Assembly: GCA_020726505.1 (NCBI GenBank) | Contig: JAHLEZ010000014.1 | Coordinates: 2,046,001 to 2,110,000 of the forward strand | DNA length: 64,000 nt | Source: Leptodontidium sp. MPI-SDFR-AT-0119 | Lineage: Eukaryota > Ascomycota > Leotiomycetes > Helotiales > Leptodontidiaceae | Direction of reading: 5' to 3' | In this document: piece after piece, positions 3,699 through 63,084 of the stretch | How the letters are laid out: each line of letters starts with the position of its first letter | Numbering within the stretch: the stretch's first letter is position 1 | Notes under the pieces: generated by a model | Told to the model about the DNA's origin: nothing | What the model saw: only the letters and a program-made list of their open reading frames with translations | Database searches by the model: none | Made by a program: the position numbers and the translations under genes

Positions 3699-5510
3699 GC
3701 GATGTCTATGTCTTCGAAGAGAACGACATCATTGGAGTTGCTGGAGGCGTGAGATTCCAGTGTGTTCCTAAAGCACTTCTGGATACTCTTCTATCGCCTG
3801 CAAAGTCTAAAGCTGCAAGTAAGTGTTGTCTGAATTCTATCATCCCCTTCGAAGTTGTTTCGGGAGCCTCGGTGCTGCTTGTGTCCCCCTTCCACATGAT
3901 TTGAATCACAATATTGACATTGGAAAACGCCGATGCTAAATACAAGCAGCCTCCGACCGCCCAGTTCCTATGCAAACATCTCAAGTCAAGCAACAGAACC
4001 TGTCCCAAACGAACTCAAAGACTCGAGCGCCTATGGGTCCAGCCAAGAGTCCCCCAGCGCGAGAGATTGAGGTTATCAAGAAGGAAAGACCGACCAGTAA
4101 CTCGCAATCCGAGTCACCCGCAATCTAGTTGCTGAGTCACTGAAAATCATCGCCGATGAAGTTGGTTGTGAGATGACCCAAACTGGCAGATCCGATCGAG
4201 CTGGATTTTTCCAGTACTGTCTTCAACGACCTGTTAACCATCGCTCATCTCAAATCACATCTGCGACAATTCGAAACTGTCTCAGAATCTCCTGCCGACT
4301 CCGGCCTATTAACACCGGATATGGTAGTGTCTGACACTAGTGATTTGGACTACTCTGATAACGAGGCAATGGTTGAGGACCTGAACGAGAAAGATGTATC
4401 TGAGGACTTGAACTTCATTTGTACCATTTGGTCAACAATTGCTGAGGAAATAGGTGTCAGCTTGAGGAGATCACAGACAATACCGACCTGGCTACAATGG
4501 GGATGGACTCGCTTATGAATTTGAGCATCTTGGGAGCGTTAAGAGAGAAGACCGGCTTGTCAATGAAACCTGATCTTTTGGTCAGCAATACATCAATCAA
4601 CATGATCGAAACATCTCTAGGCCTTGGGGAAGTCAAGGCAAGGGCTACTCCAACCTTAGACTCCTCAGCCCTCCGAACCCCAGTTCTCCTGCCAATTCCT
4701 GCCCAAAGAGCCGAAAAACAATTCTCGATATCATCATTCCCACCCGCAAGCTCCATCCTCCTTCAAGGCAATCTTAGGACGGCAAGGCATATTCTGTTCC
4801 TACTTCCGGACGGATCGGGCTCCGCAGCTTCTTACGCCCATATACCCGACATTGCTGCCTCGGAATTGCTTGTCTATGGTCTCAACTGCCCTTTCATGAA
4901 AACGCGCGAAGACTTTACGATTGGAGTACCAGCAGTCTGTCAAATCTACATGGCTGAAATTCGACGCAGACAGCCAAACGGACCGCATATGCTTGGAGGT
5001 TGGTCTGTTGGTGGTGTTCTCGCCTATGAGATGACCAGGCAGTTCATCCGGAAAGGCGAGACTGTCGAGAGACTTTCGCTCATCGATTCTCCCTGCCCGG
5101 GCAAACTCGAAGCGCCGCCTTCTTCCTTCCACCGTTTCTGTGATAGGATTGGTCTGCTCGGCAAGCCAAGATCCAAGGTCCCCAGTTGGCTACTCCCACA
5201 TTTCGCCTCTGCTGTCCGAGAATTGACAAACTATTCCGGCAGTCTGAGAGATGCAAAGGGAATTGATGTTTCTAAGATGCCGTTTACAGCGGCTATCTGG
5301 GCTAGAAATGGTATTATCCATCTTGACACTGACCCAAAGCCCGATTGGGACCCCGCCGTGCCAATGCCCAACTCATTGGATTGATTGACGCATAACAGAA
5401 CAAACTTGGGTCCGAACGGGTGGGAACAGTTGGTCGGGGCGGAGAACATCGAGTGCACTAGGACTACTTGCAATCATTCACGATAATGAGACAACCAATC
5501 GTAAGCAGTG
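3699..5510 (+). pseudogene. truncated non-reducing polyketide synthase (PT end, ACP, ACP, thioesterase)
   Basis: Only the 3' part of a non-reducing iterative PKS is present. It starts after a CAG acceptor at 3698 with DVYVFEENDIIGVAGGVRFQ, the end of the product-template domain. An intron begins near 3822. A first ACP region (LKIIADEVGCEMT, about 4140) is followed by a second ACP (GMDSLMNLSILGALREKTGL, about 4500) and a thioesterase with PDGSGSA, the nucleophile motif GGWSVGG, IDSP, and a distal NH near 5472 where the catalytic His belongs. Lesions: the first ACP has frame conflicts; one base is missing near 4463; an in-frame TGA at 5382-5384 falls where the family has Asp-Trp; another base is missing near 5475. 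The KS, AT and most of PT are absent. In such enzymes the thioesterase releases or cyclises the polyketide. Its neighbours are melanin-type enzymes, so a pentaketide-naphthol or related synthase is inferred. Confidence 0.85.
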
Positions 5511-7066: not shown

Positions 7067-7822
7067 CTAAATAATCTCAACGGGCTCGACACTCTCAAGC
7101 TCACAGACAGTCACCAAAGATTCGGTCTTTAACCCAGCACCTACTTCTCTTACACAAAATTCCTCCTCATGTGCCTGAGTATAACTCCCGCTGAACACCT
7201 TCTCAAATTCATGCTCGTTCCACCTCACTGTCGGCTTCAGCCCGGCAAATTTCCACTCCCCGTCCACCTTCGTGTAGTAGTGGATATTCGTGGCATGGCT
7301 ATGGCCCTTCAGTTTGACCTCTTTCATATCCGGCCCCGTATAAACTTGATGTGCAGCGCGGATTTGGTGGTGCCCTATAACGCGTGTGTCCGAAACCCGT
7401 TCCCAGTAATGTGCTCCGAGGAGGTGTTGTGTTTTGATGCATGGGTCGCCCAGAAAATCGTCATTCGTGACCATCGCGAGAAATTCGGCTGCAGGCATCG
7501 CAGGCCAGCATTTCTTGCCAATGTCTGTGTAGTCGACGAAAAGAGAAGGGGCCAAGATACTCTCGAGCCGGTTCCAGTCCTTTGAAAGATGTTAGATCCC
7601 GCCGAGACCCGACGTATTTGAGAGACGGAGTTTACCTTCGCATCGTAACTATCCGCCCAGTTGAAGACGAGAGCCTCCAAATCGAGAAAATCTACAGGTA
7701 GTTAGATCTCTATCTGGAAGACTTGAACAGAGAAAATTACCGTCGAGAGATATCCTCTTCTTACTCTGCCACAAACCAAAATTATGTTTAGGCTCATCGA
7801 CGGCAAAAGAGAATGTAGGCAT
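7067..7822 (-). CDS. SCD1: scytalone dehydratase
   Basis: Three exons on the minus strand, 7822-7741, 7691-7636 and 7579-7067, give 216 aa; introns of 49 and 56 bp have GT-AG ends and keep frame. The protein has the family's landmark segments: FNWADSYDAKDWNRL, FVDYTDIG, DDFLGDPCIKTQH, HHQIRAAHQVY, HATNIHYY and WKFAGLKPTVRW. Scytalone dehydratase removes water from scytalone and vermelone in DHN-melanin synthesis. The active-site tyrosines (ADSY, VDY) and the two histidines (TQH, AAHQ) are kept; in my alignment the position of the Magnaporthe active-site Ser129 reads Ala (HATN against HSAN). The C-terminus runs about 35 residues beyond the Magnaporthe enzyme. It is transcribed divergently from the reductase gene at 8833. 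Start chosen at the ATG 7822-7820, just before PTFSFAVDEP. Confidence 0.9.
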
Positions 7823-11424: not shown

Positions 11425-13851
11425 ATGGTGAATACTGGGAAGCCAAGCAGGGGATGTTATATGTGTCGAGCTCGCCGTATCAAGGTATGTATATCATATA
11501 CTTCGTCTTCGTCGCTGTTACTTTGGAGTTGGACTGAATGAGATTTAGTGTGATGAAGGCAAGCCAGGATGTATGAGATGTCAGAAATCAAAGAGAATAT
11601 GTCCTGGATATCGAGATGCATTCGAGCTCAAATTGAGAGATGAAAGCAAGTCAACGAAGAAAAAGCTCAATCGCCGGGTGCACGACCAATCCAATGTCGC
11701 CGTCATCAATAATCACAACGGAGATGGGCTTCCTGAAGCTTTGGGGTCTTTCTCGGCCTCTGGTGCCGTGGTTCCACACTCAAGGCATTCTTCTTTCTCA
11801 AGTGTAGCGTCCCGTTCTCATGGCTATACGAGCGAAGTTGCCCACAGGCACCACAGCTTTACCGCCGGACATATGACAACTCCACTCTCCCAACAAGCGT
11901 CGTGCTACTTCCTAGCCAATTTCGTTCTGGTGCCAGAGGCAGGTACAATGAGAGGTTACTTGGACTTCGTGATTCCGCTTTTGAAGCAGCGAACCCCCCC
12001 TCAGTCTTTAGTGCTGGCTTTCTCAGCCGTAACTCTCGCCGCGTTGGGAACCCGACCAAACTCGAAAGCGTTACTCCCCACGGCCGATCTGTGGTATCTG
12101 AAAGCATTGAAAGAGATCAATTTGGCACTGCAAAATCCCAAAACAGCATCAACAGACTCGACGCTGGCTTCAGTTATGCTGATGGCCTCGTTCGAAGTGA
12201 GTACTCTAGTTTTATTTGTTCTCCTGGTGCTCTAGTGATAGTAATCTAGCAACTAATACCATCGCACCTGCTAACCAACCAACAGCAATTGACCCCATCC
12301 CGTATGAAAGTGGGAGGGTGGAGCTCCCATATTGACGGAGCTGTTGCTGTGATGAAATCACGTACGATGGAACAGTGGAGGACGCCAGTCGGGAAAGAGC
12401 TGTTTATTGCAGTCAGAGCTCATATGGTATGTTCTTCGCACCATTATATACCTGAAATTTGGCACTGAACATGATGCAGACTGTGCACTGCATCGCCAAC
12501 TCAAAGCCTATTAATCCTGGAGTGGACTGGATGGGCGTTATCGCCGATGACCCGATTGTTCAAACATTCGCAGCAGCAAACCTCAAGATGGCGCAACTTC
12601 GAGCTGATAATGATCTAACAACTACCTCTAAAGTTCGATCTGCAGAGAACATTGAAAAAGTCTTGAAGTTGCTTCGGCGAGCCGAATCGTTAGACAAGCA
12701 GTACATGGAATGGATCAAATCCCTCCCACCTGCGTGGCAGATCAATACTGTGGCGTGGATTGACGGCGAAGTTCCTGACCTCAGCAATTCGGTCGTTCAT
12801 CCGGGTCGGATAGATGCCTACGGCGAGCTATGGATGGCCTACAAATACAACATTGTACGAGGATGTCGCCTCTTCATCTGGACAACAATTTTGCGCTGCG
12901 TGGCCTGGCTAGGTAACATGGGCGACTACAGGCTCACGCCAGAATACACAACCGCTTCCCAGATATGCCGGTCACTCATTGAAGACATCGTGGCCAGTGT
13001 TCCATTTTTCTTCGGCTGGAACCGTGGTAGAGACCCAGCTATGGCTGATCGGTCGAATTTTGCTTGCGGCGAGCACGATCCCACCACCGTGAAGCCTCTT
13101 GCCGGAATATTTTCTATGTGGCCAATTTTTGCAGCTGCAAGCTCAGACTTTGCATCTCCCTCCCAGCGGATATTTCTGAGGGGTAGACTGAAGCACATTG
13201 CCGATATGATGGGCATCAATCAAGCTCTCATCATGTTCCAGGTATGTTCGCCTCAAAAATGGCACTGTCCACAGCTAACAAGAACAGGCCCAACTAGTAC
13301 ACCCATCCCTCTACATAGCTCGCGAGCGTATGTCTCTAGCTCCTCACCCCTGTCAATCTGAAAATGCAAAAGTCATAAGCGTCACCGGAAGTCCATCAGC
13401 AGATATCACTTTAAAGAGCTCTCCCACGTCGACCTCACCTCCAGCAGCTCAGACAAGCTCCAGACCAGAAGCTCAACTCTGGTCTCAACCAACTCCCCAC
13501 CTAGCCCAACCAGTTTCGACTTCACAAAATCAACCCTGGATACCATCACCAACTTCTGACCGGCTGTGGAGTTCCCCACCTCCACCAGATATTCCAGCTC
13601 AAGCCGGACCTACAGCACATAATCGCACCTTAAGCACATCACCTCCTGCAGATCAGCTTTGGAATGCTCCTCCTGAAAGCTCAACTTCCACCTCTGGATG
13701 GATCCCAAGAACATTTTCCGAGCCGTTCTTCATTCAAGATCCACAGTCTGCCATGCGAGCCCCCCCGATAACTTTTCAAAATCCTCCAGAATACGACCGA
13801 GACTACCGCACTTTCGAGCATGCCGGCTTCGGGGCTATTTCCAGTGCATAG
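11425..13851 (+). CDS. Zn2Cys6 fungal transcription factor
   Basis: Five exons, 11425-11484, 11549-12196, 12286-12426, 12480-13241 and 13288-13851, give 724 aa; every intron (46-89 bp) has GT-AG ends and keeps frame. The binuclear zinc cluster spans the first intron: GCYMCRARRIK then CDEGKPGCMRC..KRIC, with all six cysteines at standard spacing (residues about 11-38). A fungal-type middle region follows (SQQASCYFLANFVLVP, WWSS-like GGWSSHIDGAVAVM, AVRAHM). The C-terminus (last ~170 residues) is rich in Ser, Pro, Gln and Thr with repeated QLW or RLW tripeptides. It is probably a nuclear DNA-binding activator or repressor. Its place after the naphthol enzymes makes it a candidate pathway regulator, which is an inference from position only. 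Confidence 0.9.
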
Positions 13852-22475: not shown

Positions 22476-25400
22476 TCACTTAAGGATGACCACCTCCCTC
22501 GTAGGCTTCGCAGCCCACCAAGCCGACTTCTGCACCTTCCCCACGCCCAACCGACTAGCGAACTCGCCTCTTGTATCCCACTCGACAAACATGACATTAA
22601 ACAATGGCAAGCCCGAGACATCGACCCGGTCCTCATTCCCCCCAATACTGCGACTCGGATAGGAGGATAAAATCATACAGGGCAGAGGACAGGCCTTTCC
22701 GCTGATCGGTCGGGATCACCCTGCCTACAACCTCGTCTGAAGAGTCGAGGATCTCGGCTTCGGGGATGATCAGCTCTGTGTCGACGATGAGACCTTGGCC
22801 ACGTTTGGTGCTTGGTTTCCAGAGTGTTTCTTGTCGCGGTTTAGTTTGGACGCAGCCGGAAGCGTGCGACCTGCGTCTCGCAGACGAGGTGACGATTGTC
22901 GATCGGTATGTTGGCTGGGACGGAGGGAGGACCAAGATCGATAAGTGGATTTGAGATTGTGTTTGTACGGAGCCTGACTGCGTCTTCTCTAAGCCTGCGC
23001 AATGCCTCCTCATCTGCTGGGTCAAAAGCAAGGCCGAGGCCATGCCCATTCACGGGCACTAGAGACAATGGTGCTTCTTGAGCTGATCCATTCCCTAGGC
23101 CCGCCGTATTTTGAAGACCTCGCAATGTTGCTTGGGGAGGTGGTGGTCTCGAATTCCTATACCACATGACCAGTGGCTTGAAACGCTCCTCGGCAGGCTT
23201 CTTGTTGTCAGTATTGCGTGCACTGACTTTCTTAAGCGAAAGATCATCGTTCGTAGAAACCCAGAAGGGCTCTTCGAATCGAACTCCAGGTTGAGTGTAG
23301 TACTCCTTCTTTGTATCTGGGTGATAGTCTGGATCCTTGCCTATTTCCCATGCAGTCCACGACCAGCTTGGGAGATAGTCATGTGCTCGCTTCGTAAGAT
23401 GTACCCCTTTTACTGCTGGTGGGTGCCAAAGCAGAGCGAGATCAAGGAACTTCTCGGGCAGGCCATACAGAGTGTGGCCGAGTGGTACTTGGGCATGCGT
23501 ATCAGGGTCACTGAGAATGCCTCGTGGTTTGTTTGTATTTGCCATCTTCTCTAGAACATTGAGAAGCCCCATCACCGCACTGAGAGAGTCTCTCGAGTCG
23601 GTCATGTTGCGGCCTGTGTATTGCGACAGCAGATTCGCATATTCGGTGAAGAAGGGTGATCGAAGCAATACGGGCGCTCCGTCCCAAGTATGCTTGATTT
23701 TGCATACTCTACTGTCGTCAGGAAGCGACGAAACCCAAGGAATCTGAGGAGGACCACTGCCAGCATGACAGGCAGGCATGTCCTCACGTAACACGCCATG
23801 TCGGCAGTGATAGCTGACATACCCCCCATTGAAGATGAGCATCCGTTTGGAGAGAAGCTTCTCCTGCAGTGTCCACGCTCTGGTGTCCCACTTGCCGTAA
23901 GTGTTGTTGTACTTCACCGCCAGGAGGACATTGACATTTGGTCGTATTGCTCTGGCAATCTGGTTTCGTACTGGTCTGGTTGATATGCCGCATAGTCCAG
24001 CTTCGGCATCGAGCCCATCAGCCGCGATAAGCGTCACGGCCGCGTGGCCAAAGATGCTGTCCATCTGTTCGATCTGTGATGCGCGTGCATCCGGATCGTC
24101 TTCGTATCTGTCATCTTTCTGAATGATGCAGAGGCTGTCCACCCAAATGTACTGCAATCCTATCCTCCGGGTCACACCTATTGCATCTCGAATCGTCTTT
24201 GCAATTGGTGGTGATTGACCCTCTAGCTGAGAGCTGAGACTTTCCAAGTTCCGTACATGGAGATTTAGAGCTAGATTTCCTGCGGCGCCCCAGACGTACG
24301 ATAGCGCAGCATATTTCGGTTTGGCTTGCTTCCTCAGGTTGGCCATGTCTATTTGAACAATTCTCATTGTATAAACGTCAATCAGTCGGAAGTGAGGTCC
24401 AGATGGAGGCTGAAGTTCATTCCACCAGCTTGGCTCATCACAATCTTGGCCATGGTGTTCCAGACAATTATCGAGCCACCTTTTGCAGTCTCCCTCGATA
24501 TCGATATCTTGCTGAAGTAGCTTCCCATACTGGAGGCCTCCATTAATATTCCGATAACTGGAGGCGATACGGAGATTGAAAGTGCTGAGACGAGAAAGTG
24601 GCGCTCTGGGTGCATTGCCGTAGCCCCAAACATCGATGTTGAGCAATCCTGCATCTTTATCACTTGCGTTATGGATAATGATGGAGACAGCAACTGGCAA
24701 CTTTGCGTCCAGATTCGCAACAAACGAAGTGACAGTTGGGATTATGGTGCCAACCGTCGCCATAATTTGCAATCGTTGTTTATCTGTTTCATTCCAAATC
24801 CCAGCAGTGAGACCGGCTGCGGCAGCGAGGGAGGCACCCTGAGCAATGTCATTGGGGTCCACCTGCTCGGCAGAAGTGATTCCTCCAACCACAACCTCCC
24901 CGCCTTGGAGTTTCTGCTCTAGGTCGACGTTGTCGCGGCTTCGTCCGAAAGGGTAGGGAGGCTTGTGAATGGGTATGTGCTGAAGCCAATCGAGGCCCTC
25001 CGCCCACTCTCTGAAATTGCTGCTAACAAGCTCGGGGGGGAGGTAGTCTTTCACAGCTGGGTGCTCGAATGGGTCGTGCTCTGCGATAGCATCAAAGATC
25101 AAGCTGCAGAAGTTACAGGTTCCCTTTCTTTTCTTCCGCAGAATGCGGTCTAAGAAGATGAGCTTGTGGGAGAGTTGTCCATCTCCCCCCTGCTCTCCCA
25201 AAGTGATGTTGTTGCGGGAGTCGAACTGCTCGAAGTCAATCTTTGAGCACGCAGTACACAAGCCTTCCTTCCTCTCCCGCTTCTGAGTGTCGACTATGGT
25301 GATATCCCCTCCAAGCAAACTTCCCTCAATCTCCAAATTGCTGAGGTTCGTCACGGTACGCAGTGACTTGGGCAGTCTGAGCTTCTGTTCAGGCTCGGCC

Positions 25401-25876
25401 TTCCCTGGAGGGCTTGTCACCGAGGCGGAATCCGCTGATCCCCATTTTCCAAACGGGAACAGACTACCAGCTTTCGTCCTGCCACCTAGTGTGGGTCGTT
25501 TGAACTGTGTAGACTCGGCGGGTGGCGTAGGCAAAGCACTTAGGGTCTCATCGAGAGGGGTGGCAGACTTTTCAAAAAAGGGCAAGGATGACCCGTTTGG
25601 GCTGTGATACCCTGAGTCTAACGGGGGCGCTGATGATACTGGTGTTTGAGAAATGTTGGCGGTGATAGTAGGGTCACATGCTGGCACTTCTGAAGGTGGT
25701 CGAGAAGAGCATACGTTGGATGCTTGAGGAGTTTCTGGAGCAGGCGTATGGTGGCCTTCAGTCTTTACTGCGTCAGGCTTCTTGCTTCCAGCCTTACCGG
25801 AGCCACCAATCTGCGGAAAGGAGATCCTGTCTCCCATCTGTTGATGGAGGGACGAGAGTTTGAATCTGGAATTCAT
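22476..25876 (-). pseudogene. HET-domain (heterokaryon incompatibility) protein, 3' end frameshifted
   Basis: A single long frame runs from the ATG at 25876 to a stop at 22841 (1011 aa). The HET domain lies around residues 520-630: KYAALSYVWGAAGN, IRDAIGVTRRIGLQYIWVDSLCI, and AAVTLIAADGLDAEAGLCG. Downstream come RAWTLQEKLLSKRMLIF, RDSLSAVMGLLNVLEK and WSWTAWEIG, all usual. The N-terminal ~300 residues are Ser/Pro/Thr-rich. The family's C-terminus is still present but in other frames: KPRQETLWKPSTKRGQG through ILLSESQYWG, then NEDRVDVSGLPLFNVMFVEW to a stop at 22476. The joins need a small deletion near 22845 and removal of one G from a six-G run near 22640. HET proteins trigger cell death or growth arrest on contact with non-self. 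The HET core is intact, so a protein lacking ~115 C-terminal residues could still be made. Marked broken because of the two frame changes. Confidence 0.85.
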
Positions 25877-28800
25877 GATTTCGTTGGTTCGGTCCTGAAG
25901 TGGAATCAAAGTACAAGATGGGGTCAACCGAAGTAGAAAATCAAAACGTAGTGAACATCAAGTTCACTTTAGCATGACCTTTTTATACACAACATCAGGT
26001 GCGATCATGGATTCATATGCGTTTTCTCTGGTGGCATAAAACCACCTTCACAAGGAGGATCATAGCTGAAGGAACCACAGAGAATTAGCCACGGCGCGTA
26101 TGCAGGGGAAGGAGCGCCGGGATCTGGGCTGAGTGTGTATGGCTGACTTTGAAAAAAAAACAGCACTGCATGGAATTATGACCGTTGTGTTGCATAGTTT
26201 CTGAAGATTTGGATTGGTCAAGTCCTTGTGAAGGAGGATGGTAACTGGTAGCAGCTACGTCCAATGAACATAATTCTTGCTGGAATTTCAAGCCATAAGG
26301 ATTCAGGGAGGATAAAATTAACTTGACAAGGCGGCAGCCTCCCATAACAAAGAACGTATCAGCCTAAGTCGGCCTCCTCCTCAGCGGCATGATTAAGTGC
26401 CGCTTTTAAATGCATTCTGGAAGGTTGCTCTGCTATTTAGTATTACTTCCTCGTACAGCAGTCGCCGTCTGGTAGCACTAAGTTATTTGGTGTTCCGAGA
26501 GAACTGTTAAAACTGGTAATTCTCAGTAGCACCCCAAGCCATAATTATAACGGTAGTTGTGGATATATCTCGTAGACCTTCAAGATCAAAGACTTGTAGT
26601 AAAATAAGTAAAAGCGGCATAAAGGCTGGCGTTGGGGGCTGAGTCGATGGTTGGTGGAAATCCCTTGCAAGGCTGGAAGGCTGGCAATGATGGTTGCAAC
26701 CTCAAACTTCAGCAGGCACATTATTCCTCCGAACTGCCAAGTAATTGGCCGATTGCACTCGGCAGATCCCGTGCTTATAGCATGTCTCCCTTTTCCACGC
26801 AGTCCATAATTGCCTAGTGCAACGTAATCATGCAACGTAATCACGGTATTTTATATTGTACGTACCTACGTGACTTGTTCTGTTGAAGAAATAATCAAAA
26901 CCAGGAAAATTGAAATGCTAAGGTGCCAAGCCGATTTGTAATAGCAACTTGTATGGTCAATAATTGGTCCACAAGAAGAAAGAACAAAGAAATCGAGAGG
27001 GCTGGTGCCCAAGTCTTCGGCGAGGGAAGAATGAAGCTGCCTACAATTGTTGTACAGGTCGTCCCATGGAGCTTCCCGTTTAGAAGTCGGATTGCCCATG
27101 TACGGAGTCCTGTTGGTCCGAAGCCTGTTGTGAACACCACTTTTTTGTATGTGATGATGTCTTGTACAGGTGCTTTACAGGAGCTTGTTAGCTGCTTTTG
27201 GATCTTTTCTATATATGAAAATTGAGGATCATATAAGAATATAAGAGATGAGTACTTATAATAACCTCATTCCTAAATATTGACTTTATACTTCTCATTT
27301 CGAGAGATAGAAAAATAACAACCAGGAACATGGAAATGTTTAGAACCACCGAGAGATAGTTGGTGGGATCTGGATCGATGGTTTCTGGATGGCCATGGCC
27401 CTGCTACTTTCTCATCTTCCTGCGAAAAAGTGTCATTTTCGTCGACTTGACTTCGAGCATCAGAGCCTGGCCACAAAGTGTAGTCTGCCATCGTAAATGC
27501 AAAACGTGAAGGTACCTTCAATGTTCGTAAAGAAAATCAGTGATTGAAAGATACAGTCTAGTTTGCTAGAGATTGTGTGAGATGAGTTGCAAATCATCTA
27601 TCGCAAGAAAAATATCATGAGAGGAGGACTGATAGCAAATAATCCACGTCAAGGCTTTGGGTCGGCCCCCAGAGTTCAAGAACCTGACTCTCAGTAAGAT
27701 CAGGAACTTAAAGTACGAGATTGTGCTGACTACCCATTTTTCTTTCTTCACTTTCAGTCGAAGGCGCCGCTGAAACACTATCCTCACAGGGATTTATGCA
27801 TTTGAAATACACCGGTGGTAAGCTTTATTACATCAACTACAGTATCCACTCACCAAAATCGCGCGGTGCAGCAAAATAAAGTTATTGTCAATTTCCTAGC
27901 TAAGACAAAGATTTGATAAACTAACTAGCTTAAAGTAGACTTTAAAGTCGACGTGGTCGTAGCTTTCGAAAGGCCCGCTGCCAATTTCTCCCTTACGACT
28001 CCTTTTCCTGGTTTATCAGCCCTGTCAAAGGTATCCATTTGAGGTACTCAGACGTGGAGCCGTGCGATTCAGTGAGTGGATACGGCATCTTTGGGTCTTC
28101 AGCGGGCTTAAGAAGAGTTAAATCTCGGTATTCAGTCTGGCTTAGCTAGCAGGATAATAAACTCACAATCTTATTGTTAGTAAGCCCTGAACATCGCTGG
28201 TCATATTGAGAAATTGATTAAAGGCTCGAGGAAAGAGAGTAGTTTGAGTAGCTCTCTCAGAACTTTAAAGATGATTTTACATGTGAGAAATAGAGAGCAT
28301 GATTCTCAAGTCTCTTTAAAGAATTTATCTCGAGGCTTTCGAAGGCTAGCAAATCTGCCTGCTTTGAGTCAGCTCGAATTCTAAGTCTTATGTGTGGGTA
28401 CCTCCTTTGAGAGGCGCATAGTATTTCAATCGTGAAAATCCTTGTCTACAAGGTACTTCAAAAAAAAGTTTTCCAGCTCTCGTATCCAAGTTGAATACTC
28501 GCGTGGCTCCACGTCAATGCATTTAGAAAGGTAAGGGTTGACGAAGCCAACGAGTCAGTCAGATCGGCCGTTGTATCTCGTTCCCTTGAAAGTCATCCAT
28601 CGCAACTCCACTCTCAGCAGTTGAGTTCAAAGTCTAGAAATTCAAATTTGTTGCACTTACAATCTGTCAAAAGCTCTGCCTACACCTACCATTGAGCTCT
28701 GGCTTCCAGATGCAGACCCACGCGGTTCTTTATGTGGAAACGGTGCTTTTCTTCCTGTTATTTCTAATCACCGCTATTACCGAAACGAGTTTCCAGCTGT

Positions 28801-29675
28801 TACGAACTCATAAGCACACATACTGTAGTCATCAGAAGAATCTTCCAAGTTCAGTCTTGACTCTTGAGTCATGTTGGAAGTATGTCAATCAACTACTGTT
28901 CGCTACCCACTTCAATAAAACACAAGGGGTTTTGCTCTCACATTCAATCGTTACATCAGAATACCGCCCACAAAAAAGTCCAAGCCTAACTATTGAAATG
29001 CAAGACATGAGTTTGTGATAGTCTACTTCATCCCATGTGACTTCACAAATCTAAGATCGATTTAAGCTTAGAATTTAAACCAAAGATATGATTTTGCACA
29101 AGACATTTTACCTACTTCTGTCCGACCAGCTGATGTCACTAGTCTCAAGATTTCTTGGTGCACTTACTTTGTGTGACAGCATAAAAACCTTGCCTTGCAG
29201 TAAAGTTTATTTTAGACTTCAGCTTTGAACTTAATCGAGACGGATCAAGGTTTCAGGAATTCGGCCATACTCAGTCTAGTTACCATAACGTTGTATAGCC
29301 GATAGCCTTTTACCTTCAAACATGTGAAGCAAATCTCAATGGATTCTGCGAAGATTCCGTTCGGCATGTTCTGTCGTTGCTAACATACCTTTTGAGTTGA
29401 ATTCAAGCTTGCAGAAATGCAAGACTCGTCCGAAAATGTCTATTATCTTTCTCACCAAAGGGATTCGGAGCTTGAGATCCTCTGTCAGGAGACTTTACCC
29501 GAATTTGCGTAGAATGTGAGAATGAAAAAGGGTTGGTAGGTGTATAAAGACAGACAGAAACCGCACCTATGATCAGATTCTCATCATCGGCACTAGATCA
29601 TATTCCAATTCACTGTGATTCACTTTGATACCAATTACACCAAATCCCTCAAGCAATTCGCTATGCCTCACAAAC
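25877..29675. other. long gene-free stretch (3.8 kb)
   Basis: The first part is the probable promoter of the HET gene. Beyond it I see only short frames without domain features on either strand. Weakly protein-like frames around 26866-27225 do not give a recognisable product. The rest is moderately AT-rich, and the last part should hold the promoter of the repeat-peptide gene at 29676. Confidence 0.5.
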
Positions 29676-30085
29676 ATGAAGTTCTCCGCCACTCTCCTCG
29701 CTGTCATTCTCAGCATGACTGTTACCGCTTCTCTTCTCCCCGCCGATGCAAGCCCCCCACCCCCTCTCCTCCCTTCTAGTCATCTTGAAATTCCTCTCAT
29801 CTTTCCAAGTTTTGAAATTTTGCACATACGATCCTCTCGTCACCGCCAGATATTGAGCGACACTGACAATCAACATAGTCGCCAACTGTTGACACCCAGC
29901 AGAGCGTGAATCAAGCTGTCTGGAATGTCTTCAAGGAGAAACGCAATGAGCCGATTACAGTCGATTCCCAAGAGAGTGGCAATCAAGCTGTGTGGAACGT
30001 CTTCAAAGACAAACGCGACGAGCCAATAACAGTGGACTCCCAGGAGAGCGGCAGCCAAGCTGTCTGGAATTTGTTCAAAGCATAG
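29676..30085 (+). CDS. secreted kexin-processed repeat-peptide precursor
   Basis: Exon 1 (29676-29747) encodes a signal peptide, MKFSATLLAVILSMTVTA, then SLLPAD. A GC-AG intron (29748-29878, donor GAT|GCAAGC, branch CTGAC, acceptor CATAG) joins exon 2 (29879-30085); total 92 aa. Exon 2 holds three repeats: residues 25-46, 47-70 and 71-92. Repeats 2 and 3 begin (N/D)EPITVDSQESG; all three contain QAVWN(V/L)FK; repeats 1 and 2 end EKR and DKR. Lys-Arg is the cleavage site of the Golgi kexin protease, so secretion and cutting into short peptides ending at the AVWNVFK core is likely. There are no cysteines. Fungal precursors of this design include alpha-type pheromones, dikaritin RiPPs and surface-active repellents. 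This core is not one I recognise, and no UstYa (DUF3328) gene is seen nearby. Exon 1 alone reading on would lose the repeats, and a GC donor is used elsewhere in this window (58305). Confidence 0.8.
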
Positions 30086-33014: not shown

Positions 33015-35006
33015 CTATATGGAGGAGGACTGCAAACCTGCTGACCCCTTGGCTGGGCAGAACTCAAACTCCATACATTCATCCGAGGCTAGAGCGCAGT
33101 GCTCTCCATTGAATCGCTGTCCAGGGGGGCAGAGTGGCGTGTCCCCCACGCACTCCTTAGAGGCAGCATGCCACTGAGTCCCCGGCTCGCAGGCAGGATC
33201 GATCTCCGCGACACACCTCCTGCCGTTGTACCTGAGGCCTGCACGACAATCCGGGGTATGCTCGGAGGCGCATTCGGTGCCATCAAAGTACGTTTCCGGC
33301 CCGCATCGAGGCTCGCCTCCAACACAAGCGGTTCCGTTGAAGCTAGTTCCGGGACCACAACCGGGCCGGACTTCGGAGACGCACTCGCCGTGGCGAAGCG
33401 AATAGCCGGGCTCGCAGCTCTGCCCTTCCTGGCTCACACACTCTCCAGCTGTCCACTTGTGTCCCGGAGGACAACCTGGATGTTCCAGCGTGACGCACTG
33501 GGTGCCGTCAAAGGTGAGGCCTTTACCACAATCCGGCGGCCCAGTAACACATGCGTTGCCTACCATCACAGACTTGGGCGGGCACTGGGGTCTCTTGTTG
33601 GTCATGCAGGTCCCATTAGTCGGCAGGCTGCCGGCAGGGCACTCGGGCGGGCTTTCAGATACACAGCGGTGGCCATCGAAGGTGGTATCCTTAGCACAAC
33701 TAGGGCGGCCAATCGTTAGGCACTCCTCGCCGTTGAAGTAGGAGCCCTTAGCACAATAGGGTCGCTTGGCCACGCAATTGGTGCCGTCGAAGCGGGAGTC
33801 CTCTTCGCAGACCGGGCCATCCAAGCCGACACAATGGTCCCCTTCGAGCTTCGTGTTCTCGGCACAGACAGCAGCCTCCGTCGTCACGCAATCGCCACCC
33901 TTCAGTTTCGCGTCTGGAGGGCAAACAGGACGTTCGGTCGAGGAGCAAACTGTCCCATCCCGTGTCGAGTCGGGAGGGCAAGCCGGCGGGTCTTGCGACA
34001 CACACCGGGCTCCATCGCGCTTAAAGGTCGGCGGGCATGTTGGGGGCTTCACAGCCTGTTTCTCACATCGTGTCCCAACCTTGATCAGGGGAGGTGGGCA
34101 GTCGCCCTCACCCACATCAATGGCGCACACTTCTCCATCCCAGGCCATGCTTGGTGGGCAGCAGCGCGCGGTGTTGCTCGATCGGTCGAGAGACAGAGTC
34201 GTGCCGGGATCACAGGATGGGCCCGTCGTTGAGTAGCATTTGCCGTTGTCGAACTCCTCGTTCTCTGGGCAGGACGGGTTCTCTGTCAAGATGCAGGTTT
34301 TGGTCTTAGGGTTGAAGACCGTCGGGTCCAGGCATGAGGGGCCATTTTCGTACACACAGTTTTCCTCTTGGAGGCTGGTCCCCTCAGGACACACGGGGCC
34401 CTGTTGAGATACACACCGTTTAACGTGCGAGTCGAAGCGGCTTCCCTGGGCGCAGCTAGGTGGCTGCTTATCGATGCACATGCCATTGTGGAGGGTAGTG
34501 TCGTCCGGGCACAGTGGTCCAGTGTTGCTCACACAATCTTTGCCATTGAATCGATCATCGTCGGGACACAGGGGCTGTTGGGTAGAGACACAGACATTGC
34601 CTTCGACCTTGAACCCCGAGGGGCATGACGGTAGTGTCTTGGAGACGCAAGCTTTGCCCTGAAGCTCAGTTGGGGGAGGACAGGTGGGAGCCTCCTCAGT
34701 GATACAGACTTTGCCGTTGAATTCCTCTCCGCCGGGACAGCTGGGCTTGGTCGTGGAAACGCACTTGTTGTCCTTGAAGAAGGTGTTTTCGGGGCATTTG
34801 GGGACACCTAGCACACAAGACTCGCCGTCAAAAAGCGTGCCCTCGGGACAGCATTTGATTTGACCTGAGGAGGGATGGGTCAAGGGTTTGATGTGATCAA
34901 GATTATACTTGGGTCGGACGGAGGTAGAGAGAATGTTTTGGTCTGCCTGACAGAGAGCAGAAACAAGAGCGGCAATGAAAGTCCTCTGTAGGTTGAGTTT
35001 CACCAT
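33015..35006 (-). CDS. secreted protein of ~30 two-cysteine tandem repeats
   Basis: One uninterrupted frame of 663 aa from the ATG at 35006. It begins with a signal peptide (LQRTFIAALVSALCQA) and a short linker. From about residue 50 to the end I count some 30 repeats of 18-22 aa with the pattern C-P-x-G-(4)-F-x-G-x-x-C-V-S-x-x-x-P: two cysteines per repeat about 11 residues apart. Examples: SCPSGFKVEGNVCVSTQQP, YCAKGSYFNGEECLTIGRP, GCGPGTSFNGTACVGGEP. Repeats are diverged from each other, so the array is old and under constraint rather than recently expanded. Disulfides within each repeat would give a rigid rod, suggesting a cell-wall or matrix protein or adhesin. No known named family comes to mind; function unknown. 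The antisense frames across it are by-products of its base composition. Confidence 0.85.
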   Translation of the reverse strand: MVKLNLQRTFIAALVSALCQADQNILSTSVRPKYNLDHIKPLTHPSSGQIKCCPEGTLFDGESCVLGVPKCPENTFFKDNKCVSTTKPSCPGGEEFNGKVCITEEAPTCPPPTELQGKACVSKTLPSCPSGFKVEGNVCVSTQQPLCPDDDRFNGKDCVSNTGPLCPDDTTLHNGMCIDKQPPSCAQGSRFDSHVKRCVSQQGPVCPEGTSLQEENCVYENGPSCLDPTVFNPKTKTCILTENPSCPENEEFDNGKCYSTTGPSCDPGTTLSLDRSSNTARCCPPSMAWDGEVCAIDVGEGDCPPPLIKVGTRCEKQAVKPPTCPPTFKRDGARCVSQDPPACPPDSTRDGTVCSSTERPVCPPDAKLKGGDCVTTEAAVCAENTKLEGDHCVGLDGPVCEEDSRFDGTNCVAKRPYCAKGSYFNGEECLTIGRPSCAKDTTFDGHRCVSESPPECPAGSLPTNGTCMTNKRPQCPPKSVMVGNACVTGPPDCGKGLTFDGTQCVTLEHPGCPPGHKWTAGECVSQEGQSCEPGYSLRHGECVSEVRPGCGPGTSFNGTACVGGEPRCGPETYFDGTECASEHTPDCRAGLRYNGRRCVAEIDPACEPGTQWHAASKECVGDTPLCPPGQRFNGEHCALASDECMEFEFCPAKGSAGLQSSSI

Positions 35007-36661
35007 TGTGAATAACAGTGAGATGATAGATCTGAGAATGATGAGAGTGAAGGGGTTTCCACTGGGTTGTTATATAGTCTCAAGGAAAAAGGTATCACCT
35101 CGAGAAAGTTCAAAGCTCGGCTCATAGGTACCAATCCAGCAGAGCAGGTGTAATTGACCAACCGAAAGCGGAAGAAGAGAAGGGGCATCACTCAGTCTAG
35201 AAGATGCGCAGGATGATTGTCAGAATATCTCGAGATTTGATGCTAGAGAAACTACTAACACCCCTCTATCACATTTAAAAGCTTGGCTTGATCCACCATT
35301 TTTTTATGGTGCAGTTGAAAGTCGATCGGCACAAGCCAGCCGCACACCCTGCATATCTGTGGCTCTCTGCTGTCAGCTGAAACTATAAGGTTTGAATCTC
35401 GATGTGAGTCGGAAGTAGCCACTAAGCTGCCTAGTTACCCGCGATCGGCAGATGCGGGAGTAGCCATTTAGCTAGTTACTCGACGATCATCACCGGGAAC
35501 GGGACGGGAGTGATCATAAGCTAGTTTCTCGATGATCAGCAAACTGCTCTGTGCATGGTTCGGTCGCCGAGGACTCGGACTGTTCGCGTCACTAATTGCC
35601 GAAGCGCATACTGCTTCTGCTATGCTGCAGCTTTACTTTGAAAATTTTCAACGAATTAGGAGCTAGTATGGTACATGCTGGAGGAGTTGTCATCGACGAT
35701 TCAAGACAAACGTGATAATATATGCTCGTCTACTAAGGACTGGCAAGTGTATTAGTATTATTTATTTGAATTGACAGATAAGTATACTACCAAGTTCACA
35801 AGTGATCAGAAAACTGCCATCATAGAAAAGTTCGAAAGACTACCAGAACCATAATACAATGCCACTTCTGATGGCTAAATTTGAGAGAATTGGCGCAGTC
35901 CAAGCTTGCTGCATCAGAACTAAAAGGGCTCAAGCTGCATGCTCGCAGAGTTGGATCACCTGCTCAGCAACTTCTCATGATTCAACCGCCAAAGAAAACT
36001 CTATATCTATTAGTGACGAGTTACTAACAAGCTCGTAAGCTACCACACCGCTCGCAAAGCGGCTGGGATCACTCATAGACGTGGAAAACACAAAAGTTAG
36101 CGTTATGGGTCCCCAGACATATTGACTTCAACTCCATTGTCGATCTTCAATATGCCCGAGATCGTGAGATGAGGGGTAGTAAAACTTGATGAATAGAAGA
36201 CATTGTCAGGCGTCGTCATCTTTGGACTCGTGATTTTTAGACACTGAGATTACGACTGTTGAATCTTGAATGAGAGAAGATCTTCAGATCTAGCAAGTAT
36301 TAGGAAGTCACAATGTCTTGCTTCTTCTTTCTTGAGGCTTCAAAATCGGAAGCGGTTTCCTGATCTGCACTCCGCATGGCTGCCGTGTCAATTGATGGAA
36401 ATATATCTTGGCGAAACGAGCAATGCCGTCTCTTTGTTACTGGTTGGCAAGGAAAATCAAACTGCAACCGCAAACCGCTGGCAGCATCTATTGTCACTTA
36501 GTCAGTTCGGAACTTCAGAATCAAGAACATAGTCGATTGGCTTGCTAAGTAGTGTATTCTCCGCGAGACATACTTTTCCTCAACAATCCTACTTATAACT
36601 CTTTCCCACCCCTTGATCCACCTAACTATCAACATCAAATTCTCTTTCACCTCATACCATC
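35007..36661. other. intergenic, no gene seen
   Basis: Shared upstream region of two divergent secreted-protein genes (33015-35006 minus, 36662 plus). It includes a degenerate tandem repeat near 35415-35550. A TATA-like TATATAG lies at about 35071, upstream of the minus gene. Confidence 0.5.
35415..35550. repeat. degenerate tandem repeat, about three units of 46-50 bp
   Basis: Units share (G)AGT(A/G)(G/A)(C/T)CA..TAAGCT(A/G)..CTAGTT(A/T)C(C/T)CG(A/C)(C/G)GATC. They start near 35415, 35461 and 35511. Divergence is high, so the boundaries are approximate. Confidence 0.45.
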
Positions 36662-38129
36662 ATGCATTTCACATTGAATCTCCTGGTTGCCCTCTTAGGG
36701 GTAGGCACCACCGCGTCCGCGACATGCTTCACCACATCAGGCCCGGCAAGCTTCAAAGCCTGTTGTCCGACACCTCAAAGCAGTGGCAAGGGCACCATCT
36801 CGGGCGTCGTGTTCAAGTATACCTGCGGCCAGTTTTTCAACGGCGGGGAATCTACCATTAGCGCCTCCAGCGTAAAGGAATGCGCTGAAGAGTGCCAGAA
36901 GGCCACCCACTGCAATTCTGCTTCTTGGAGCGCTAAGCAAAATGCAGCTTGCTGGGAGAGAAGTACCCAGCACCAATGAAGTTGGGCTCTTGGTTAACGC
37001 TCCAGAAAACTACCGAGGAGCCTGATCCAGAGCAGGATTGCAAAGAGCTGGTTGATGCTGCCAAGCGGGAAGCTGAATCCAAATGTACGACTGAGAAAGA
37101 TCGGCTCCAGAGAGAAGGGGAAACACAATGCCGAACGGAGAAAGATATAGCTCTCACCAACGCCGATGCTCAGTGCCAGAGGGACAAAGACACAACTCTC
37201 ACCAACGTCAATGCTCAATGCCAGAAAGACAAAGACGCAGCTCTCGCAAATGCCAATTCTCAATGCGCAGCTGAGAAAGATAAGCTACGTGCAGACGCTG
37301 ATACAAATGCCCAGAAAGCTCAGTCCCAATGCACCACAGAGAAGGATCAACTCCGGCAACAAGCAGATTCTGCACGAACGCAGTGCCAGAGCGAGAAAGA
37401 CGCCGCTCTGACAAACGCCAATTCCCAATGCGCAGTCGAGAAGGACCAACTCCGGCAACAAGCAGATACTGCGCGAACGCAGTGCCAGAGCGAGAAGGAC
37501 GCTGCTCTGACGAACTCCAATTCCCAGTGCACTGCCGAGAAGGATCAACTGCGCCAGCAGCTGGCCGATGCCGCACGCCAACGCGATACGGAAAGAGACG
37601 GTCTCCAGAAGCAGTTGAAAGATGCCCAAGATAAAGCGGGAGCAGGTGGTGGCACTGGTGGAGGATTTACCGACTCGGCATCAGCCCAGGACGGTGCATG
37701 CATAAACAACAGCTGGAGCAGTTTGTGTAGTGGGGGCTGCGGGCATGATACCTTTACCGTCGGAGGCGTTGAGTTCAAGAGGAAGTGTAACGTGTCGACG
37801 GGAGGCGGAAGGGAAGAGCAATGGCTGCATCGCTCGTCTGTCATGGACTGTGTGAGGGAATGTGCGGGGATCAAAGCCTGTCTTGGAGTCGGATGGATTG
37901 CCTTGCAAGGTGTCAATGGGGTAAGTGAAATTGAAAATACAGAAATCCGAATCCAAATACCTCTCTTGATGAGTCTGAGGAAGTAGCTAACGGTACTCGC
38001 GAAATAGCATTGTCATGCACATATGACCGTCAGTGGAAGTCTCAGGACTGCTCCTTCTAGGGGCCATCCTCTTCATGAACATCACCTTATCTACGCCCCG
38101 AGCAGGGCCAATGTGTGGTAGGGTAGCTG
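36662..38129 (+). pseudogene. secreted PAN/Apple-like, coiled-coil protein with one frameshift
   Basis: The ATG at 36662 opens with a signal peptide (LNLLVALLGVGTTASA), then a PAN/Apple-like unit: FKYTCGQFFNGG..SVKECAEECQ..HCNSASWS..ACWE. The frame ends at a TGA at 36977, but the coding sense continues one frame over from about 36955 (EKYPAPMKLGSWLTLQK), so one G appears to be missing near 36958. Next come about 200 residues of charged coiled coil with a Cys at 15- or 18-residue intervals (motifs QC-x-x-EKD and QC-x-x-DKD), a Gly-rich hinge, and a second PAN-like unit (GVEFKRKCNV..SVMDCVRECAGIKACLGVGW). A GTAAGT donor at 37921 and an AAATAG acceptor near 38007 suggest a last exon, with its end uncertain. 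It is probably an extracellular, carbohydrate- or protein-binding fibrous protein. Either recent pseudogene or a single assembly error. Confidence 0.7.
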
Positions 38130-59722: not shown

Positions 59723-62700
59723 CGATAAGCAGAACTTATCGTTAGTGCGTTTGGCGGGGCGGTTACGCGAAATCGTATGCGATTACCTAAGTCCTGTTAA
59801 TAAGTGCGCCGCGCCTTCGAGGGGCCGCATCTCGAGCACCGCCGGCTTAAATTTTATAACAAAGGTACCGTTAGAACCGCGCGCGCGCGGCCGTCAAAAT
59901 GGGCCTATAGGCGAGCGATTTGGACAGGTAGTTGCCGAGATATTAAGAGGTAAAAGTCACGTGATATCAAGGGAGGTACAAGACCGAGGACACTCGCGAC
60001 ACGCAATATAAGGGTCTATAAAAGAGGTAGATTTTAAGTAAAAGGAAGTCCTAGCTAGCTACTATAGCCTTTTCGTTAACTGCTTACCGCGCGAAGCGCC
60101 GCCCCGCCGCCCCCAGAGCCCCCCGCGGCCTCGCCTACTTTGTTTACCCTGCCCCCTCCCCTTCCCTCGCAGGCTCGGGCCCTCCTGGCCCTCCTGGCGG
60201 CGCTGGCGGCGCTGGCGGCGCTGGCGTAACTCGTCCACGAGCTAGTTCAGGCTCTGACCGGCGCGCAACTGCTCGAGCTCGTCGACGGCCTCCTCCTCGG
60301 TCCTCCCCCGCGCTATACGGGCGCGGACCGCGTCCCAGATAACCTTGCGCCGACAGAACTGGACCTTGATTGTATTCCCTAGCCGCTAGCGGCTCCCCCA
60401 GCGCTCTTCGAGCTCCCTGATCGCCACTTAGCCCGGTAGCCCGTCTCGCTACTCTCGCCAGGCGTCCTTGACTGTAAAGACTCGAGCTAGGGCTGTCACG
60501 GCTAGTAAGCCTGGCTCGATGAGAGGCGCGAAAGGGAGAGGCGTAGGCGTAGGCGTCGAAACGGGCGCTGTTACCGTGTCCGCTATTAATATCCCCGGCC
60601 CTGTGCCTAAGTAGCTCGTGACTAAGGTTATTGTCGTAGTAATTGGGACTTGGCCTTGTACGAGGGCATCGAGGCTACTTTACAAAGCCTGTAGTCGGTT
60701 CTCGAGCCGGCCCTCGAGCCGGCCGACGAGCCGCTGCGTGCTCTGGAGGATCGCCTCGCGCGCGCTCTCGAGGACACTACTCAGCTCGGGCAGCGCGCGC
60801 TCGAGGAGTAGGCTCCGTGGCTCGCTCGGCCCTGTAGCGTCGGCCTGGACGAGTAAGGCGAACTCGTCCTAATCTGGCCCGTAGAAAGGGGCGTAAGCGA
60901 AAAACGGCAGCGCGGGATAGCGAGGCTGTAAGACAGCGAGGTCTTGCAAGAGGACGACGCGGAGGCGCCGTAGGAGCTTAAGGAACCCGTCGCTAGTGAG
61001 GTCATCTTCGTCGAGGCCGCCTTGCGCCTAGGTACACCGGCGCGCGCGCGCCTCAAAGCGGGCCTCCCACTCCTCGAGCCAGGGCCAGAGCTGCTTCTGG
61101 AGGGCGTACGGCGGCTCGTGGGCAGCACGCGCGAGGAAGTAGTCGCTAGTAGACGTTGAAAAGCCGGCGACGATACACATAAACTGCCGCGGTAAGTGTG
61201 TAAGGTAAGCCTGGCAAAGGACGCTCTAGTTCCAGCGGCCAGCTTGCGAGATCTGCGCGAGCGAGCTGCCGTACGTTTCTGCGCTCTGCGCGCCTACACG
61301 CCGCGGCAGGTGCGTCTTCTTTGTCGAGACGACCCCGGCTGCGCCAAAGACACGCCACGTCTCTTGAAGCTGCGTCGGGTACGAGAGCTCTTGCTCACGG
61401 TCCTGGCCAACGAGTACTTTGATTCGGTACTAGTCGCTCCGCTGGCGGAAAGACGGCGGCGCCTCGCTAGCGATATGCTAGCGCTAGAAAAGGAGCTGTG
61501 CGAGGGCGCCCTGCGTACAGAATAACGGGTCCTTGTGTCGAAGGGAGCCCATGAACTCCTTCTTCGCTGTCTTATTTAGCTTGCCGTCTCGCAAGAGAGT
61601 AACGAGGCAGCTACACGGCGTCGGGCCCTCTGTTAGCGGGTAATCGAGCAGAGAGAGGTCTGCTAGCTCCATCTTCCGCCGGTTTTCGCCACGCAAGAGG
61701 TAGTAATGCCCGAGGAGCAAGTCGAGCCTCGTTCGCAAGTTCTGCGGCATAAGCGCGGCTCCAGAGAGCAAGACGTCTTGAATCCGCAGCCACTCTTCGG
61801 GCGAGTAGCCGGCCTAGATCCCGTCATTGCCTCGGTCCTTAAAGGTCTCCCGATCAAGCTTGCCACGCTGGCGCGCCCGCTGCTCGAGGAAGCCCCGGAC
61901 AGCCGCACCGCGAGGGTTCTCGGTATTGTGGCTACCGTGAGCGACCTGTAATCGCCAGAGCTCGATTACAGTAGCAATATACGCGTCAACTGTCCCTTTC
62001 GTAAGTAACGAGCCCTCGCCGCTACTACTACTGCTGCCTCTACTACTGCTATCGCCAGTCGTACCCGGCTCTCGAGCGAAGGCCTCCGGGACCACGTAGC
62101 CCTCGCGGTCCTCCGCCAGCAGCTCTGCGATCTCCGCGAGCGGGACCTCGAGGGTCTGGGCGAGGCTCTTAGCCTCGAGCAGCGCTGCCGCCTCCTAGTC
62201 ATAGTCACCCGCCCCCTTCCTCTTCTGCTGCTTCTTCGTCGACGGCTTGCCGGCTGGCTTGACGCGCCGGAGGAGGACGTCCTCCTTTAGCCAGGCGGCT
62301 AGTTTGTCTGGGGTCACGAGCTCGCCGTCTAGCCAAGTATAGAACGAGCCGTCCTGCGCGAGCCGCGGCTTGCTGCACTAGTTCTAAAGAGCGGCTCTGT
62401 TAGCTAGCTAGCCACACATATATACACACGAGGGGGAGGGAGGGGGACGTGCCTTCCACTCCTGCTGCTTCGATCGGTAGCTGCGTGCCGTATTGTCCGG
62501 CTGCTCGTCCTTCTTCGCCTTCAGGCCAGCGCGGCGGGCCTCCTGCGCGCGCGTCGTCGCGGCGGCGTACGAATCGTCCATGGCTATCGTCCGTCTCTGT
62601 CTCGGGGTGCGGTGGTTTGGCAGTTTGTTGACACACGGGGACGCGAGGGGGAGAGGTGATAAGTAGCACGCGCAGTCCCCGCGCCGCTTCTCATAAGGCG

Positions 62701-62816
62701 CGCACGCGATTTCACGGCGCGCCGCCCGCGGCCGGTAAGCAGGTCACGGGACCCAAGCGAGGGGGGCGCGCGGTGTCGCGGGTTGCGGCGCAACTGCGCG
62801 GGCCCCCGATAAGCAG
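59723..62816. mobile_element. Crypton element (GC-rich), bounded by 10-bp direct repeats
   Basis: The sequence CGATAAGCAG occurs at 59723-59732 and at 62807-62816, flanking the GC-rich block that carries the Crypton recombinase remnant on the minus strand. Cryptons move through a tyrosine recombinase and are found between short direct repeats rather than inverted repeats. The block contrasts sharply in base composition with both neighbours. The boundaries are inferred from the direct repeat alone. Confidence 0.6.
60080..62581 (-). pseudogene. RIP-damaged Crypton tyrosine recombinase
   Basis: From the ATG at 62581: MDDSYAAATTRAQEARRAGLKAKKDEQPDNTARSYRSKQQEW in sense (position-wise), an intron-like gap near 62450-62390, LVTPDKLAAWLKEDVLLRRV, TVDAYIATVIELWRLQVAHG, ENPRGAAVRGFLEQRARQRGK, AGYSPEEWLRIQ, LRTRLDLLLGHYYLLRGENRR, then THLPRRVGAQSAE, ISQAGRWN and SVLCQAYLTHLPRQFM, where HLPR, RW and Y fit the tyrosine-recombinase residues. 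The tail has RKVIWDAVRARIARGRTEEEA and LRAGQSLNQLVDELRQ. All in-frame stops I could check are TAG at sites expected to be Trp or Gln (for example minus-strand TAG at 61478-61480, 61484-61486, 61430-61432 and 61814-61816). Each is explained by CpA to TpA change, the RIP signature. The element cannot make the enzyme. Confidence 0.85.
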
Positions 62817-63084
62817 CAGCACCACCACCACACCAAAACGCAGTCCAACTTCAACACCTTCCTTTCCAGCTGCCTTCTTCCCGATTCACCCCATTCTTGC
62901 CTTGTAATCTTTTCGAAATTCTGACTTCTTTCACCTTTTCACGACCATCGCAGGAAGTTATCTCGATTCCCGACCAAAGACAAATCAGGAGCTCCAGAAT
63001 AGTTCAAATTTCGAGTACGGAAAGACTCGCACGCGACAGCATCAGACATCTGCGAAGCACACACGATAAGCGATCGAGAAGGAG
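62817..63084 (+). promoter_or_regulatory. upstream region and 5' leader of PIS1
   Basis: The pyrimidine- and CA-rich stretch between the Crypton's right repeat and the PIS1 start codon looks like a fungal promoter-proximal leader. The insertion has left only about 270 bp of native upstream sequence. Confidence 0.4.

Follow-up and report, generated by a model that had tools for sequence, protein, structure and literature searches.

A predicted secreted three-unit repeat precursor, probably a small KEX2-processed repeat protein, in Leptodontidium sp. MPI-SDFR-AT-0119

KEX2-processed repeat proteins and related precursors

KEX2-processed repeat proteins (KEPs), named as a class in 2019 (PMC6339444), combine a leader with tandem near-identical units and dibasic sites at the unit junctions; surveys have collected 1193 (PMC6339444) and 7878 (PMC7329392) of them, and the role of most KEP peptides is unknown (PMC9769878). 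Units of 9–24 aa form the most abundant class in most Dikarya (PMC6339444). Linear KEP peptides have been detected for Coprinopsis cinerea, whose kep knock-outs are described as having no visible phenotype (PMC9769878). A leader, repeats and Kex2 sites are also the common features of the ascomycete alpha-pheromone precursors, and a leader followed by Kex2-flanked repeats is found in the dikaritin precursors (ustiloxin, phomopsin and asperipin).

The precursor described here is encoded at positions 29676 to 30085 of the window, that is, the whole stretch of 64,000 nucleotides analysed, which lies on contig C6 of a genome of 76.97 Mb in 69 contigs. It is most likely a small KEP. The leader, the tandem units and the dibasic junction sites of the class are all present, the units of 22–24 aa lie within the 9–24 aa class, and, where the units of KEPs are tandem, near-identical and set apart by KR, RR or KK, the precursor has three units with KR at both junctions.

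Two sites and three units are nevertheless few for a KEP. The 2019 pipeline keeps only proteins that cutting at KR/RR would split into four or more fragments (PMC6339444), and the two KR sites of the precursor would give three fragments, below a filter that is one survey's guard against false positives and not a feature of the class, and that, as its authors point out, omits some pheromone precursors (PMC6339444). For the 2020 pipeline, which admits a protein only if three or more repeats, each 8 aa or longer, stand in tandem between Kex2 sites (PMC7329392), the precursor is a borderline case, having three repeats of 22–24 aa with no site before the first or after the third, and its Cadophora homologue has only two. 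None of the KEP motifs DADAATXYV[A/V]D, YVW[G/A][G/S], SPPHKT, QKLKVD and XSDW, as named in PMC6339444, occurs in the precursor, and the STE13-type XA/XP residues that follow Lys-Arg in many pheromone-type KEPs are replaced by NE and DE.

Gene model, splice joint and repeat units

The 92-residue product is obtained in the ORF/splice analysis by joining two exons over a predicted 131-nt GC-AG intron. Exon 1 (29676..29747, + strand) contains the start codon and the hydrophobic leader MKFSATLLAVILSMTVTASLLPAD, which was recognised by frame analysis and hydropathy and is common to the homologues. A signal peptide is predicted at residues ~1–18 (29676–29729, + strand) from hydropathy alone, which peaks at 2.35 over residues 6–18, with V-T-A preceding S19; in the surveys, signal peptides were called with SignalP (PMC6339444, PMC7329392), whereas the present leader was judged from hydropathy. 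Pattern matching also revealed a promoter-like TATAAA box at 29543..29548 (+ strand), 133 nt upstream of the ATG, which may serve as such. Another ATG, in a different frame, lies at 29663, 13 nt before that of the precursor, and its frame (29663–29779, + strand) overlaps the start codon; translation of the precursor could be lowered by it, or the transcript may start elsewhere.

The predicted intron (29748..29878, + strand) runs from GCAAGC to ATAG, and CTGAC at 29863..29867 (+ strand), whose A precedes the last intron base by 12 nt, is branch-site-like by the fungal branch consensus. Many alternative formal donor/acceptor pairs also preserve the frame around the joint, and the pair 29747|29879 is preferred because the Cadophora protein model runs through the identical joint (LPTD|ST in the window and LPAD|SP in Cadophora). 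Against this pair speaks the deposited Leptodontidium model, which is without the 9 residues preceding the joint and corresponds to the window model using a GT donor at 29721; we infer that this gap results from the gene caller avoiding the GC donor, GC-AG being a rare type that accounts for 1.0% of annotated fungal introns (PMC7072748). The gene boundaries and exon ends given in the first-pass annotation (29676, 29747, 29879 and 30085) held when the sequence was rechecked.

Exon 2 (29879..30085, + strand; frame analysis) comprises three units and the stop codon. Unit 1, SPTVDTQQSVNQAVWNVFKEKR (22 aa; 29879..29944, + strand), ends with Lys-Arg site 1 (residues 45–46; 29939..29944, + strand), and unit 2, NEPITVDSQESGNQAVWNVFKDKR (24 aa; 29945..30016, + strand), ends with Lys-Arg site 2 (residues 69–70; 30011..30016, + strand); both units were delimited by frame analysis and both sites, at which cleavage would take place, by pattern match. 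Unit 3, DEPITVDSQESGSQAVWNLFKA (22 aa; 30017..30082, + strand), is followed by the stop codon at 30083–30085 without a Lys-Arg in between. The unit lengths, the Lys-Arg junctions (EKR and DKR) and the lack of Cys thus agree with what had been noted before, and neither Cys nor Tyr occurs in any of the three proteins (the precursor and its two homologues). At the DNA level, the same region consists of three in-register copies of a 72-nt direct repeat (Tandem Repeats Finder score 234); identity to the first copy is 76% for the second and 63% for the third, whose counted extent passes the stop codon.

Homologues and constraint between the units

Protein searches covering about 5.8 billion proteins returned two homologues among 17 candidates for the single protein and the same two among 798 candidates scored for a profile of the three proteins, a count that rests on annotated proteins, whereas short genes often escape annotation. 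An artificial long repeat query, aimed at proteins of ~119–378 aa, gave none at E <= 10 among the 7993 candidates listed. The first homologue, P0001 (DL95DRAFT_452212, Leptodontidium sp. 2 PMI_412), has three units and two Lys-Arg sites and is 95% identical over the aligned residues; the second, P0002 (IFR05_005592, Cadophora sp. M221; Helotiales, Ploettnerulaceae), has two units and one Lys-Arg site and is 84% identical over the aligned residues. Both are annotated as "hypothetical protein" with no function named. Leader, units and Lys-Arg junctions follow the same layout in the window protein, P0001 and P0002, so the repeats and the sites are retained in both homologues, while the number of units varies (three versus two).

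The QAVWN-x-FK motif is present in all eight units of the three proteins, in which 10 of 18 columns (V, Q, S, Q, A, V, W, N, F, K) are invariant, and Lys-Arg stands at every unit junction of these proteins and nowhere else in them. The units of the window protein and P0001 match by position, with the signatures TQQSV-E, SQESGN-D and SQESGS-A in order, which indicates that the three-unit array is older than the split of these two fungi and that the arrays have not been homogenised since they parted.

Comparison of the units within the window gene shows constraint at the protein level. The units differ from one another at 12–13 of 54 nucleotide sites, mostly at third codon positions (10, 7 and 9). 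In the coding frame, this amounts to 4 of 18 residues between units 1 and 2, 6 of 18 between units 1 and 3, and 3 of 18 between units 2 and 3, and in the two non-coding frames the units differ at 9–10 of 18 residues. Under random placement of the nucleotide differences, the mean residue changes for the same pairs were 8.0 (P 0.003), 8.7 (P 0.038) and 7.5 (P 0.0008), respectively; the three comparisons share units, so these P values are not independent. The NG86 dS was undefined through saturation for units 1–2 and 2–3 and was 1.31 for units 1–3, with dN of 0.10, 0.10 and 0.17, respectively, which bears out the first-pass claim that the reading frame is kept while synonymous sites differ. Synonymous saturation, small protein change and frame specificity together indicate that the units are old and have been maintained for what they encode. 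A chance or decayed repeat that is no gene at all could be imagined from the shortness of the locus and its rare splice type, but this frame-specific constraint and the layout shared by two deposited protein models make such an explanation very improbable.

The gene appears to be alone in its genome, as a translated search returned just the gene itself (one candidate scored). A degenerate AVWN(x)FK DNA pattern allowing one mismatch occurred at seven places in the genome, three being the gene's own units and four being mismatched, versus four for the reversed-pattern control; none of the four mismatched places showed a repeated unit when read in frame, one of them being SVWNFFK inside an unrelated long frame on the precursor's own contig. 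Pfam gave only weak matches to the precursor, below the curated cut-offs and to unrelated families (the best, SelP_N, E 0.0024, is taken as chance), and the NCBIfam models, which are prokaryotic, and the solved structures gave no match. A literature search for "VWNVFK" found no paper in the collection covered, and one on Helotiales KEX2 matched PMC6339444 alone. The "undescribed peptide system" of the first-pass annotation is not supported as a new kind of system, the KEP class having been described already, but within the reach of our searches the peptide family itself is undescribed. A small private family of this sort would be ordinary for the class, since 2560 of the 7878 surveyed KEPs are without any homologue (PMC7329392). 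At the same time, the finding of only two homologues, in fungi that are related to judge from the Cadophora lineage, does not support a broad role.

Proposed processing and role

The precursor is predicted, with somewhat better than even confidence, to be a secreted KEP that is cut by kexin into three near-identical linear peptides of 20–26 residues, likely acting as an extracellular signal outside mating. Splicing of 29747 to 29879 would give the precursor with its leader, through which it would enter the secretory pathway; the kexin of this genome would then cut it after Lys-Arg, and a Kex1-type carboxypeptidase would trim the Lys-Arg. A kexin gene is indeed present, with a P-domain match on contig C5 and an open frame most like a solved kexin (E 4e-57). 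Together with the three units, Lys-Arg at both junctions and two homologues of the same layout, it supports, at the sequence level, the first-pass reading of a Kex2-processed repeat precursor. The released peptides would be approximately SLLPADSPTVDTQQSVNQAVWNVFKE, NEPITVDSQESGNQAVWNVFKD and DEPITVDSQESGSQAVWNLFKA, with monoisotopic masses of 2872.42, 2476.15 and 2420.15 Da if unmodified, the first of these applying to unit 1 with the leader removed after residue 18. The earlier expectation of peptides ending in AVWNVFK has to be corrected, as removal of Lys-Arg would leave FKE, FKD and FKA ends instead of FK. The conserved C-terminal half of the unit, QAVWN-x-FK, may be the active part that a receptor or other target recognises, with the acidic N-terminal half as a possible spacer. 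At pH 7, the net charge of units 2 and 3 is ~-3, and a cationic membrane-lytic peptide is disfavoured on this account.

Processing as such could be doubted, and the product could instead be a small secreted repeat protein, uncut or incidentally cut, that acts on the surface of the cell or in the apoplast of the host and in which Lys-Arg is merely part of a charged linker. The presence of just two Lys-Arg sites agrees with this, as does the AlphaFold2 model of exon 2 from three sequences, which places helices at residues 7–21, 34–45 and 58–67, that is, one short helix per unit with charged linkers between, although this is a weak prediction (mean pLDDT 52, pTM 0.29) that deserves little weight. 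Such an uncut protein is nonetheless unlikely, given that Lys-Arg falls exactly at each junction of all three proteins and is absent elsewhere in them.

A linear product is preferred over a cyclic one because the precursor has no Tyr and no Cys, and no UstYa gene lies on its contig. The lack of Tyr and of a UstYa gene on the contig also separates it from the dikaritin precursors; if the present gene belonged among them, its cores would have to be cyclised by UstYa enzymes from other genomic loci. The genome does contain 70 UstYa matches, and Trp could conceivably be the cross-linked residue, but contig C6 carries none of these matches, whereas UstYa (DUF3328) genes accompanying KEP genes are on average 3.09 genes away (PMC7329392). 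The units are without Tyr, a criterion that is not absolute, as UstYa-linked KEP types without Tyr exist (PMC7329392), and the Pfam scan of 20 window frames, selected from the 74 that reach 120 aa or more, matched no P450, methyltransferase or tyrosinase. A RiPP precursor of the dikaritin type is accordingly improbable, and a clustered one is not supported, with no UstYa match on C6 and no RiPP tailoring enzyme in the frames scanned.

Pfam families were matched in 12 of these 20 frames, none being a RiPP tailoring enzyme, and the domains include scytalone dehydratase, HET and a fungal transcription factor, which mark the content of the window as fungal, as does the origin of the precursor's homologues. 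Among the frames nearest to the precursor are a HET-domain gene (22841–25957, - strand; Pfam) and a frame without an assigned family in the frame scan, starting near 30818. Farther away, the phosphopantetheine-thioesterase end of a polyketide synthase (4446–5384, + strand) adjoins a scytalone dehydratase (7067–7591, - strand) in what looks like part of a DHN-melanin locus, with a fungal transcription factor frame at 11549–12235. Two other repeat-bearing frames, both with no Pfam match, were seen in the window: a 684-residue frame at 33015–35069 (- strand) with many Cys-bearing, CPxGxxFxGxxCV-like repeats, and a frame at 36937–37986 (+ strand) in which charged repeats, 45 and 99 nt long and in tandem, have one Cys per unit. 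The G+C content is 0.62 and 0.57 in 60001–64000, compared with 0.43–0.53 in the remaining window.

The similarity of leader, repeats and Lys-Arg spacing could also suggest an alpha-type mating pheromone precursor. However, the genome has a separate precursor of that type on contig C7 (162722–163015), found by a relaxed pattern search, with five CGHPGQPC units, PEPEA spacers and KR sites, which makes it unlikely that the present gene encodes the alpha pheromone. The relaxed pattern gave 16 matches versus six for its reversed control, and the five-fold C7 cluster alone among the 16 was read as a precursor; the strict W-C pattern gave no match in the genome. A Trp before the first Cys is expected in an alpha pheromone, and the C7 units are without it. 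Two conserved Cys are the form expected of a Leotiomycete alpha pheromone (PMC6339444), and the present precursor, having no Cys and no XA/XP spacers (NE and DE follow KR), differs from ascomycete alpha-pheromone precursors in both respects. The scan for a pheromone receptor located STE2 on another contig, C3, and not on C6. A mating pheromone is thus hardly to be expected here, and the first-pass remark that the core is unlike alpha pheromone is borne out by the lack of Cys and the separate CGHPGQPC precursor.

For the favoured reading of a kexin-cut KEP, a non-mating signalling role is suggested by elimination alone. More specifically, and only tentatively, the gene, single copy and separate from that of the alpha pheromone, may encode a lineage-restricted non-mating peptide hormone in fungi of the Cadophora/Leptodontidium type, with two or three linear copies of ESGNQAVWNVFK released and sensed by cells. 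It might then stand for two- and three-unit KEPs, some with non-canonical introns truncated by gene callers, that four-fragment surveys leave out. The case also shows that annotation can miss or truncate few-unit precursors that contain a GC-AG intron. The gene is small and single copy, with a constrained C-terminal half, no Tyr or Cys and no gene cluster, so that its role is directly testable with a synthetic peptide and a deletion.
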